From NCBI GenBank assembly GCA_947495555.1, contig CANLZI010000001.1, positions 1,712,861-1,776,860 on the forward strand: DNA of 64,000 bases, given 5' to 3'. This document shows, piece after piece, positions 13,866 through 32,119 of this stretch. Position numbers and translations under genes: made by a program. The stretch comes from an uncultured Erythrobacter sp. Lineage in GTDB: Bacteria; Pseudomonadota; Alphaproteobacteria; Sphingomonadales; Sphingomonadaceae. The notes below the pieces were generated by a model. That model did no database searches. It was not told the origin of the DNA and saw only the letters and a list, made by a program, of their open reading frames with translations. Each line of letters starts with the position of its first letter. Position 1 is the stretch's first letter.

Positions 13866-14414
13866 ATGAGCAATCGCTTGCGACATAGTCTGAAGCACGC
13901 ACTGCCTGCGGGCGGTGTGTTCGCCAGCGCGGCCGCTGTCGGCGGCATGATCTTTGCCGCAAGCGCTGCTGTGGCCCAGCCAGCCGACCCGACCAATGGC
14001 TTCCGCCAGAAGATCGCTCACAGCACTGCAAAATGCAGCACGGGTGCTGGTCCAGCGGTTCTGGTAACCATCAACAACATCAAAAGTTCTTCGGGAACCG
14101 TGCGGGTCCAAAGCTATCGCGGGATCAAGGATGAATGGCTGAAAAAGGGCAAATGGATCAACCGGATTGAACTGCCAGCAAAGGCGGGTTCGATGACGGT
14201 TTGTATGCCCATTCCGGTGTCCGGAACCTACGGCATTGCCGTGCGCCATGACATCAATGGCAATGGCAAAACCGAAATCTCGAAGGATGGCGGTGCCATG
14301 TCGAACAATCCATCGATCAACATCTTCAATCTGGGCAAGCCCAGCTATAAGAAAACGCGGTTTCAAGTCGGCTCTGGCGTCCAGAAAATTTCGATCAATA
14401 TGCGCTATATGTAG
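13866..14414 (+). CDS. DUF2141 domain secreted protein (first of two)
   Basis: 182 residues with a signal peptide ending near AAVAQPA (about 35-40). The DUF2141 domain runs from VLVTINNIKSSSGTVRV to the end, with HDINGNGK and NNPSINIFNLGKP, a pattern shared with the paralog at 31631. It is a periplasmic or secreted beta-sandwich of unknown function. It lies alone, divergent from rpe and convergent with the Tam41-like gene. Confidence 0.82.
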   Translation: MSNRLRHSLKHALPAGGVFASAAAVGGMIFAASAAVAQPADPTNGFRQKIAHSTAKCSTGAGPAVLVTINNIKSSSGTVRVQSYRGIKDEWLKKGKWINRIELPAKAGSMTVCMPIPVSGTYGIAVRHDINGNGKTEISKDGGAMSNNPSINIFNLGKPSYKKTRFQVGSGVQKISINMRYM

Positions 14415-14462: not shown

Positions 14463-15353
14463 CTACTTCTCTCGCTTGCGCCAGACATCCAGCATCACCG
14501 CAGGAGCCGCCAGCAAAGGGTGCTTCTCGCGAAAATCGGTGACCTCGACCGGCACGCCTGTATGGCGCTCGATCTTCCACGCCGCATAGCGCGCCGCACC
14601 TTCAAATGTTGCGCTGGCCTTGACCAGGCGCACCACATTCAACGGCTTACCCATCCGCCTGCGCCACTTCCACCAGGTCATAATGCGGGCGCGTTCGCCG
14701 TCACTAAGCTGCGGCTCGATCGTTCCGTCCTGCTCGGTATAGGCGAAACCTGCAGCGGATAATGCGAGCGGGAACAAGCCTTCAAAATGGGCCGCATTGA
14801 CCGATAGGATCGAATCCTCTCGCCCCGCTTTCTCGACCCGGAATTCAGCCTTGTAAGTGGCGCGAAACAAGGCCCGCCAATAATCTTGCGCTTCACCCTG
14901 TGCAGGGCCAAGCGCCGCCGCCAGCTGCGCCGCTGTTTTTGCAGCCGAGCCAATCGCGTCAATCACCGCCTGCCTGGCCGCATCATCGCGCGCCCACACC
15001 AAACCGCTGGGTTGGACAAAGCGCGCCCAAATGGTCGTATCCATCCGACTTCCCTCAGCTGCTTCGGCAAAGCGGGCCAGCGACATGGTTGCAACCTTAG
15101 CGCGCAGCGTTTCGCCTGTGCTGGAGGCGCGTTCGTGATAGCTTACCCGCGGCCAGATGCGTTCTTGCTGAGGGCCCGGCAGCAGGACGTAGAAATCCAG
15201 CACCCCCTCCAACGATCCAGTGCGCAAATTCGAGCCATAGAACAGCACCGCCATCGCGCCAGCCTCGTGCGCAAGTGCTTGGCCAAAGGCCGCCACTTCG
15301 GGGTGGATTGTGGCGGCCAGCCGATCAGCAATCCGCGCCTGCAATGGGTCCAT
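14463..15353 (-). CDS. Putative nucleotidyltransferase-fold protein resembling Tam41/TAMM41 CDP-diacylglycerol synthase
   Basis: 296 residues. Residues 37-58 (LFYGSNLR, then LDFYVLL) match a nucleotidyltransferase core: G40-S41 about a dozen residues before D53. The following order, KVATMSL, then an ARFVQPSGLVWARD segment, then YWRALFRATYKAEFRVE, resembles the layout of the mitochondrial phosphatidate cytidylyltransferase Tam41 (GS, MIDF, KYG/V, SGR-KPV, YxGDxR). Tam41 makes CDP-diacylglycerol from phosphatidate and CTP. The start (15353) overlaps by one base the stop of a diacylglycerol-kinase-like gene, which would make phosphatidate, so the context agrees. No transmembrane segment is evident. 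The assignment is by eye and needs a profile search. Confidence 0.5.
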   Translation of the reverse strand: MDPLQARIADRLAATIHPEVAAFGQALAHEAGAMAVLFYGSNLRTGSLEGVLDFYVLLPGPQQERIWPRVSYHERASSTGETLRAKVATMSLARFAEAAEGSRMDTTIWARFVQPSGLVWARDDAARQAVIDAIGSAAKTAAQLAAALGPAQGEAQDYWRALFRATYKAEFRVEKAGREDSILSVNAAHFEGLFPLALSAAGFAYTEQDGTIEPQLSDGERARIMTWWKWRRRMGKPLNVVRLVKASATFEGAARYAAWKIERHTGVPVEVTDFREKHPLLAAPAVMLDVWRKREK

Positions 15354-16387
15354 CACGGGGCTACGAAACGAAGTTCTGGCCCCGTGCACACGCGGTATCG
15401 ACCTGGAGGAAAGGCTTCGCCATCAAGGATAAAGGAATCGTCCAGATCCATCGTGAAGCCTGCTGTGCTGACCTGATGAAAGCCCCTCGAGGCCAGATCA
15501 TCGGGCGTCCAGCCGCTGACTATCGCCGGCAATTGCAGCGCCGTGCGACGCGAAATTTGATCAAGCACTGCCAATTTCAAACCATCGCGGTGGGGGCCAA
15601 AAGCCTTCAGCCCGGCAGGCAAACGCTCCAGCGTTGAGGCGACCAGAAGCTGGCGCCTGTCCCGATCGCCCAAGCCGCTGTGCGCCAAGGTCTGGTCAGC
15701 TTCATCAAGGTCAATATTCAGCCGGACGCCGCGCCGCCACGGGTTGCTATTGTTGCCGAATAAGAATTGCATAACGCCCCAACCTGCCGTCACCGCAACG
15801 GCCAGACTGTTGAATGCGCCGAGCCGATGCGCGCTTTGACCTGCCTTTGTGCCAATGGTGAGCGCGCCCGCGCCCAGAATAAAGCCATAAGCCTTGGCAT
15901 CGGAATCATCGACCGGATGTATCAAAACAGGCCTGCGAACAATGCGGCGGGTCCCCTCAAAGGCCTCGATCGCGCCCTGCAACGACCAATCCTTTGGCGC
16001 ATCCAGATCAACCGTTAAGGCATTGGTCTTGCCCTTGGGCAGAACGGCGATATCGGGCCAATTCTCGCCAAAAACGGGCATGCCACTGGTCAACACGTCG
16101 CGCACGGTTCCATCGCCGCCATTGATGATCAGCAAGTTGATCTTACGCTCGGCAAAATCTGCAAGAGCTTGCGGCAATTGATCGCGGTTTCCGGGCTGTG
16201 CCAGATAAATATGCGGCGCAATGCTGGCATCCAGATCGCGGCCGCGATTGCGGTGGCTGCGCGGGTTATAGATCATCCCGATGCATGTCTCATCAGGACA
16301 AGCTTCAACCGTCTCGGTCGGCTTCGCACGCTTTGCGACCTCTGTCTGGCGCGGCAAATCGCTAAATTCATGAACCGGAGAAGGCAT
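15353..16387 (-). CDS. Diacylglycerol-kinase catalytic-domain (lipid kinase) protein
   Basis: 344 residues with the DAGK catalytic domain: IYNPRSHRN (about 39-47), the nucleotide-binding GGDGTVRDV (90-98) and PKGKTNAL (117-124), in place of the usual PxGTxND. The C-terminal half has the beta-sandwich with DGE(AFP) near the end (LDGEAFPPGRY). It could phosphorylate diacylglycerol or a related lipid. The TGA overlaps the ATG of the downstream Tam41-like gene by one base, so the two are likely translated together and may work in sequence on phospholipid precursors. Confidence 0.82.
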   Translation of the reverse strand: MPSPVHEFSDLPRQTEVAKRAKPTETVEACPDETCIGMIYNPRSHRNRGRDLDASIAPHIYLAQPGNRDQLPQALADFAERKINLLIINGGDGTVRDVLTSGMPVFGENWPDIAVLPKGKTNALTVDLDAPKDWSLQGAIEAFEGTRRIVRRPVLIHPVDDSDAKAYGFILGAGALTIGTKAGQSAHRLGAFNSLAVAVTAGWGVMQFLFGNNSNPWRRGVRLNIDLDEADQTLAHSGLGDRDRRQLLVASTLERLPAGLKAFGPHRDGLKLAVLDQISRRTALQLPAIVSGWTPDDLASRGFHQVSTAGFTMDLDDSFILDGEAFPPGRYRVCTGPELRFVAP

Positions 16388-31634: not shown

Positions 31635-32119
31635 AGCCAGCCCGCTGCATCCAGGCTGTCAGCGGATTGGCTCTGTGCGGTGCCGCCAGCATGTTGGTGG
31701 CCGCAACGCCCGCAACCCAAGCTGCGGCAACTGCCGCTCCGGCCGAGGGCGAGATTGTCATCACCATAACCAATATGCGGTCAACCAAAGGCGTGATCCG
31801 GGCCTGCATGACAACCAATGAGGATATCTTCCCAAGGTGCCGCAAGGATCCGCAATCCCACCGGACTGTCGTGCCCGCTGGCCAGAATGTTCAATTGCGC
31901 TTTGTTGGCGTTAAACCCGGCAAATATGCCGTTGCACTGCTGCATGACGAGAATGACAATGGCAAAGCCGATCGCGCGCTGGGTATGATGCCAAAAGAAG
32001 GCTTTGGCTTCTCGCGTGACGCCAAGGTTAGAATGGGGCCGCCCAAGTTCAAAGACGCAGTTTTTGATTATAGCGGGGCGGGAGAAAACCTGACGATACG
32101 GATGCGTTACCTGCTGTAA
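31631..32119 (+). CDS. DUF2141 domain secreted protein (second of two)
   Basis: 162 residues with a signal peptide (MLVAATPATQAAA). The DUF2141 domain shows VITITNMRSTKGVIRACM, the turn HDENDNGKADR and GFGFSRDAK. It is a paralog of the protein at 13866. Coupled by an ATGA overlap to the membrane hydroxylase upstream, which suggests an envelope role alongside a modified lipid, but function is unknown. Confidence 0.82.
   Translation: MKPARCIQAVSGLALCGAASMLVAATPATQAAATAAPAEGEIVITITNMRSTKGVIRACMTTNEDIFPRCRKDPQSHRTVVPAGQNVQLRFVGVKPGKYAVALLHDENDNGKADRALGMMPKEGFGFSRDAKVRMGPPKFKDAVFDYSGAGENLTIRMRYLL

Follow-up and report, generated by a model that had tools for sequence, protein, structure and literature searches.

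A gene for a soluble-looking nucleotidyltransferase that begins on the last base of a lipid kinase gene raises the question of which lipid the two enzymes would activate, and for what product. Such a pair lies on the reverse strand of the window, the whole 64-kb stretch of DNA from an uncultured Erythrobacter species analysed here. In the original prediction the nucleotidyltransferase was a relative of mitochondrial Tam41, and the pair was held to convert diacylglycerol (DAG) into phosphatidate (PA) and then CDP-diacylglycerol (CDP-DAG). The predicted fold, the core residues shared with Tam41, the conserved pairing with the kinase, the sphingolipid genes that surround relatives of the pair, and the co-occurrence with serine palmitoyltransferase (SPT) uphold the first idea and point to another lipid for the second. 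The pair is probably a cpgB-cpgC operon in which a Tam41-fold cytidylyltransferase of the CpgC type would make CDP-ceramide from ceramide-1-phosphate (C1P).

A lipid kinase and a nucleotidyltransferase as a conserved pair

The nucleotidyltransferase (NT) frame runs from 14463 to 15389 on the reverse strand and encodes 308 residues if translation starts at the GTG at 15389, or 296 residues from the ATG at 15353; residue numbers below follow the 308-residue form, and the features of the locus are collected in Table 1. The 296-residue protein and its one-base overlap with the upstream lipid kinase gene had been described at the outset and are confirmed, since the kinase stop and the NT start both use base 15353. 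No stretch of the NT resembles a membrane span, the largest mean Kyte-Doolittle value over 19 residues being 1.32, which bears out the soluble look also described at the outset. The kinase has 344 residues, its DAGK_cat match in a Pfam scan is above the family cut-off, and it is the sole PF00781 match found within its own genome. Its GGDG motif is one that has been described for CpgB and for human CERK (PMC10331486). A kinase from a plasmid-borne cluster of Roseomonas marmotae, discussed below, is 30% identical to it (E 2e-18).

Table 1. Features of the kinase-NT locus, in window coordinates.
Feature	Position	Strand	Basis
CpgC-like Tam41-fold NT	14463..15353	-	ORF; AlphaFold model with pLDDT 94; Tam41 fold matches; PF09139 in relatives
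Lipid kinase with DAGK_cat domain, CpgB-like, predicted ceramide kinase	15353..16387	-	PF00781, E 8.1e-11
TGATG overlap of kinase stop and NT start	15351..15355	-	sequence
GGDG nucleotide-binding motif of kinase, residues 90-93	16109..16120	-	translation
Y51-G52-S53 motif of NT	15231..15239	-	Y and G in 46/46, S in 98%; in both Tam41 sequences
D65 of NT, single Asp, in D-F-Y	15195..15197	-	invariant in 46/46; in both Tam41 sequences
K98 of NT, in R-A-K, aligned with K of Tam41 K-Y-G	15096..15098	-	invariant in 46/46; in both Tam41 sequences
R123-F-x-Q-P127 of NT, aligned with Tam41 R-F-Q-K-P	15009..15023	-	R123 and P127 invariant; also in Tam41
E182-F-R184-x-E186 of NT, aligned with Tam41 D-I/T-R ... 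E	14832..14846	-	R184 and E186 in both Tam41 sequences
Gene for a DUF2141 protein, a recurrent neighbour in convergent orientation	13866..14414	+	PF09912, E 1.9e-21

The pairing of kinase and NT is conserved beyond chance. Relatives of the NT were found in 53 of 61 near genomes and, among sampled genomes, in 94 of 147 from the order and 34 of 289 from the class, the window's own genome being counted in each sample. At 151 of 157 loci, a set that takes in the window's own copy and of which 148 are distinct by their 3' 300 bases, the kinase stop lies at most 110 bases from the NT start. Overlaps of four bases or one occur in 88 of these 151 pairs, a count favoured by the choice of the NT start nearest the kinase stop. 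The remaining six comprise five loci without a kinase match and one (L132) that was scored as far, the longer stretch of the same genome (L193) having a kinase that overlaps the NT by four bases. The pairing extends to 39 distant loci, which are stretches of 8.8 to 16 kb from 30 alphaproteobacterial genomes outside the window's family, from eight of the window's order and from one of another class; the 30 were drawn from 32 NT-positive genomes outside the family, leaving out G206 (a 3-kb contig) and G341 (split matches). With the window kinase as query, a kinase is found ahead of the NT at 34 of the 39, and with the Roseomonas kinase at 35.

Several loci depart from this arrangement. In L211 and L221 (genomes G302 and G405) and in L204 (G364) the NT is near SPT and has no adjoining kinase, and in L204 a CDP-alcohol transferase gene lies directly upstream of the NT. 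Copies of the NT with internal stops (G115:C1:185451-186281) or split matches (G071, G127, G341) were also encountered, possibly through gene decay or breaks in the assemblies. DUF2141 genes are recurrent neighbours of the pair, present at 64 of the 80 loci whose sequences are closest and at 12 of the 39 distant ones; the window has a second DUF2141 protein at 31901-32110.

Fold and core residues of the nucleotidyltransferase

In single-sequence searches the window NT matched no Pfam or NCBIfam family at E values up to 1 and nothing significant among PDB sequences. When the 46 family members of an alignment were scanned singly, PF09139 (Tam41_Mmp37) matched two at E values up to 1, L152 with 28.8 bits (E 9.8e-7), above the cut-off of 24, and L151 with 23.1 bits, below it; L152 in turn matches the window NT with an E value of 6.9e-37. 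Thus, of the significant Pfam Tam41 match that had been predicted, what was found belongs to these relatives, the window NT itself having no Pfam family. The family profile, aligned by hhalign with two Tam41 stretches, scored 34.6 (E 2.4e-4, probability 44%), against a mean of 13.3 and a maximum of 21.1 in 200 shuffles of the columns.

Other sequence searches yielded little. The profile of the 46 members found a generic nucleotidyltransferase among PDB sequences, weakly (E 0.017), and did not find Tam41; phmmer with L152 gave no relevant match in the PDB; and neither NCBIfam (NTs of L200, L233 and L152) nor Pfam (those of L231, L232 and L233) supplied a family for other members. Searched in six frames with PF09139, neither 385 genomes from the class nor 398 from the phylum gave a match above the cut-off, the best in the class being L151 (genome G303) and the best in the phylum L182, likewise a kinase-NT pair, both below the cut-off. 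These negatives are weak evidence, for the matches listed do not include the genome of L152, although the L152 protein passes the cut-off. PF09139 likewise had no match in the window genome, nor in the control genomes.

Structure prediction agrees with the proposed kinship in fold. An AlphaFold model built from the alignment (mean pLDDT 94, pTM 0.90) was compared with the PDB by Foldseek, and the first five places went to Tam41 chains (E 5.6e-9 to 1.7e-7, TM-scores of 0.49-0.54 on the model's length), followed by aminoglycoside nucleotidyltransferases at E 3.1e-4. VIA-align likewise placed Tam41 in its top three rows, with Z scores of 17.1 for 7ecd, from a Firmicutes bacterium, and of 16.0 and 15.7 for 6ig4 and 6ig2, both mitochondrial; the next row stood at 7.7. 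The entry 7ecd, reportedly the Tam41 of a Firmicutes bacterium from the work of Kimura in 2022, is by Z the closest solved structure to the NT, and superposes with an rmsd of 3.1 over 218 residues. The Tam41 matches by VIA-align cover 213-218 residues, and the fold match spans residues 12 to 262 or so of the predicted model; as these matches end at residues 245-262, at least the last 45 residues of the NT lie outside the comparison.

Within the 46-member alignment 20 columns are invariant, including Y51, G52, D65, K98, W121, R123, Q126, P127, E182, R184, E186 and K272. The residues Y51, G52, S53, D65, K98, R123, P127, R184 and E186 are those found both in the two aligned Tam41 sequences (the 6ig4 and 7ecd stretches) and in no fewer than 98% of the 46 members. 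The glycine, serine and aspartate originally singled out as G40, S41 and D53 are G52, S53 and D65 in the present numbering, and the alignment places them on Tam41 core residues; the GS...D core and the ordered Tam41 motifs first recognised hold up in that Y-G-S and the single Asp are shared and their order is kept. Many nucleotidyltransferases carry D-x-D where the NT has the lone D65. After the Asp motif, both Tam41 sequences have a stretch of the form W-H-K-x-N ... N-P-x-x-Y-S, which is missing from the window NT and from the five members aligned beside it; judging from these two sequences, we read this stretch as probably family-defining for Tam41.

The term 'Tam41-like' is thus right at the level of the predicted fold, on the evidence of the match of the AlphaFold model to Tam41, PF09139 in two of 46 relatives, and the shared core residues. 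The NT resembles the mitochondrial enzyme, a CDP-DAG synthase (6ig2, 6ig4), in its fold over 213-214 residues and in a core of Y-G-S, D, K, R-F-x-x-P, R and E, and differs from it in sharing about 13% identity, in lacking the stretch after the D-F motif and any PF09139 match, and in that its relatives sit among sphingolipid genes. To the Firmicutes enzyme, bacterial like itself, it is 12% identical, and over structural alignments with Tam41 of either source the identities are 11-14%. The Firmicutes and mitochondrial Tam41 stretches are 44% identical to each other. With the Firmicutes protein resembling the mitochondrial enzyme far more closely than the NT does, these identities do not support a special closeness of the NT to mitochondrial Tam41, and the suggested bearing on mitochondrial origins finds no support.

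Sphingolipid genes around relatives of the pair

A kinase immediately upstream of the NT is also the arrangement of CpgC (CC_1161, CCNA_01219) in Caulobacter crescentus. There, CC_1159 encodes CpgA, a CDP-alcohol transferase by its domain, CC_1160 the ceramide kinase CpgB, CC_1161 CpgC, and CC_1162 is spt; further ceramide genes run to CC_1165, and second LptF/LptG genes and nucleotidyltransferases lie on the other side (PMC11324152). As described in that paper, ceramide phosphoglycerate (CPG) was not detectable in CC_1161 mutants, CpgA is dispensable for CPG, the CC_1161 protein bears the InterPro domain of CDP-DAG synthases, and orthologs of most of the cluster genes occur in Sphingomonadales, in two of which they are scattered over the genome. 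The end product of the CPG pathway is reported to be able to replace LPS in Caulobacter. From the gene order, and from the statement on Sphingomonadales orthologs in PMC11324152, we infer that the window NT is orthologous to CC_1161.

The order of genes on the Roseomonas marmotae plasmid, namely CDP-alcohol transferase, kinase, NT, SPT-like gene and acyl carrier protein (ACP), is that of Caulobacter; the PLP-dependent enzyme next to the NT is taken for SPT on the strength of its match to the SPT genes found at 28 of the 39 distant loci. In the annotation of this plasmid the NT is a 'hypothetical protein' and the kinase a 'diacylglycerol kinase family protein', and genes so labelled and so placed may serve sphingolipid synthesis.

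Among the 39 distant loci, whose neighbouring genes were identified by ORF clustering and by searches with named proteins, SPT is found in 28, its centre at most 2.4 kb from that of the NT, together with LptF/G permeases (31 loci), a fatty acyl-AMP ligase (26), a CerR-like epimerase (24), a metallophosphoesterase (19), a CofC-like transferase (16), a CDP-alcohol transferase (13) and ACP (13). Pfam and NCBIfam uphold the labels at L200, including an SPT equivalog above its cut-off, and the names CerR and CofC rest on position and likeness. Within the window's order SPT adjoins the NT in six of the eight loci of the distant set. Relatives share with Caulobacter the succession CDP-alcohol transferase, kinase, NT, SPT and ACP, with LptF/G nearby. 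A second CDP-alcohol transferase gene stands beside the LptF/LptG pair at L200:14127-15338, L198:13615-14826 and L231:2923-4131, and its product is a candidate user of CDP-ceramide.

The window genome differs from Caulobacter in that its kinase-NT pair is apart from SPT, and of the cluster genes sought the 64-kb window yielded only the kinase, the NT and DUF2141. The spt-acp-cerR-aasR, cpgA and lptFG setting is seen around relatives, with SPT at 28 distant loci and on the Roseomonas plasmid, and was not found at the window locus. The SPT of this genome is separated from the pair by about 320 kb (G000:C1:2049442-2050683; best PDB match the serine palmitoyltransferase 2x8u, E 2.6e-203) and is adjoined by ACP, and the 60 kb around it hold no sought cluster gene beyond these two. 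A search for a match to the CpgA of Roseomonas, which had no positive control, drew a blank in the window genome. Nor was SPT found at any of the 80 loci closest in sequence, within flanks of up to 6 kb, some of them clipped by contig ends; a CofC-like gene occurs in 25 of these loci, a CpgA-like gene in 20 and a CpgD-like gene in 15.

In a draw of 289 alphaproteobacterial genomes, an SPT match at E values up to 1e-60 is present in all 34 NT-positive genomes, which are spread over 21 families. The draws for NT and for SPT are taken as one set, their size and listed handles agreeing; the genomes without a match are listed in part. SPT matches occur in 43 of the 289, or in 40 once three matches of 34-35% identity, probable paralogs, are set aside, and the association has a Fisher p of 1.8e-38 (2.7e-36 with all 43), a value that is not corrected for kinship. 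Six genomes with a clear SPT and no NT match (G019, G061, G245, G258, G423, where SPT is partial, and G457) are perhaps sphingolipid makers that lack this head group.

The reaction of the pair

As the NT tracks sphingolipid genes, with SPT in 34 of 34 genomes, and as the gene order of its relatives is that of the Caulobacter cpgB-cpgC genes, ceramide is the likelier substrate. The kinase-NT pair would then be the cpgB-cpgC operon of phosphosphingolipid synthesis, with the kinase predicted to phosphorylate ceramide. The NT, soluble or peripheral to the membrane and of predicted Tam41 fold, would transfer CMP from CTP to C1P, yielding CDP-ceramide together with pyrophosphate. In a further step, a CDP-alcohol phosphotransferase could exchange the CMP of CDP-ceramide for glycerate or another alcohol, giving CPG. 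That the pair acts in this manner is the reading we consider probable. Whether CpgC-type proteins at large are CTP:ceramide-1-phosphate cytidylyltransferases, so that head groups are attached to sphingolipids by a logic copied from CDP-DAG, with the Tam41 fold turned to a new lipid, is a more general proposition for which we see an even chance.

The original route from DAG through PA to CDP-DAG is the weaker reading, and its substrate is probably wrong. On this reading a DAG kinase and a soluble CDP-DAG synthase would recycle DAG to CDP-DAG beside the membrane enzyme CdsA, a role that would suit the Tam41 fold and shared residues of the NT, the DAGK_cat domain of its partner, the production of CDP-DAG reported for the Tam41 of yeast and of a bacterium, and the acceptance of DAG in vitro by Caulobacter CpgB, which also phosphorylates ceramide (PMC10331486). 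We nevertheless hold this to be unlikely: such recycling has no need to track sphingolipid genes, yet the NT does so in 34 of 34 genomes; deletion of cpgB left PA levels unaltered in Caulobacter (PMC10331486); and CdsA is present in all 34 NT-positive genomes, so that there is no need for another CDP-DAG synthase. By the same count the NT is rejected as a substitute for CdsA. The proposed look for cdsA elsewhere in the window genome located it as a separate gene at G000:C1:67755-68159. CdsA is described as an integral membrane protein that is not homologous to Tam41, and although CTP_transf_1 enzymes would in principle carry out the same type of reaction, on CTP and a phospholipid, the NT has neither PF01148, since it matches no Pfam family, nor a span-like segment.

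It is also conceivable that the NT belongs to the CPG pathway and has the Tam41 fold but carries out other chemistry, using another nucleotide or another phospho-acceptor such as phosphoglycerate, or forming CPG directly. Two papers give the role of CpgC simply as converting C1P to CPG 'via an unidentified mechanism' (PMC12275187, from 2025, and PMC13228409, a 2026 preprint), and the window NT lacks the stretch that separates the Asp and K-Y-G motifs in Tam41, so that its substrate site may differ from that of Tam41. The residues common with Tam41 are nonetheless intact in the NT, and CDP-glycerate is reported to be made already by CpgD, which CPG formation does not need; other chemistry therefore appears distinctly unlikely. 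A generic nucleotidyltransferase fold of the aminoglycoside or MNT type, with a superficial likeness to Tam41, is suggested by fold matches to ANT(4') and HalB, which are weaker, and is highly implausible in view of the wide gap in Z (at least 15.7 against 7.7), the reach of the Tam41 match to residues 245-262, past the nucleotidyltransferase domain, the PF09139 matches among relatives, and the single Asp of the NT, which agrees with the statement that Tam41 retains one of the fold's three acidic residues (PMC11646218).

Synthesis of CDP-ceramide by the NT would supply a candidate answer to the unsolved step from C1P to CPG in bacterial sphingolipid synthesis and, if true, would mean that bacterial biochemistry includes an activated sphingolipid as an intermediate. 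An NDP-activated ceramide was already proposed in 2024 as a possible product of CC_1161 (PMC11324152), and a Tam41 fold for CpgC-type proteins turns that suggestion into a precise prediction of CTP, of CDP-ceramide and of Asp65. The term 'CDP-ceramide' was absent from the 5.39 million open papers searched, no paper was found with the term 'FbTam41', and among the matches listed for 'Tam41' together with 'ceramide' no title concerned bacterial sphingolipids.

Clusters of the phosphosphingolipid type that include the NT are also carried on plasmids of alpha-, beta- and gammaproteobacteria, namely p1318-4 of Roseomonas marmotae (L233), pDCB2 of Diaphorobacter sp. JS3051 (L231) and pPNP1 of Pseudomonas sp. 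JS425 (L232). Such a distribution agrees with PMC11324152, where horizontal transfer was proposed. The Diaphorobacter plasmid pDCB2 is typed as conjugative.
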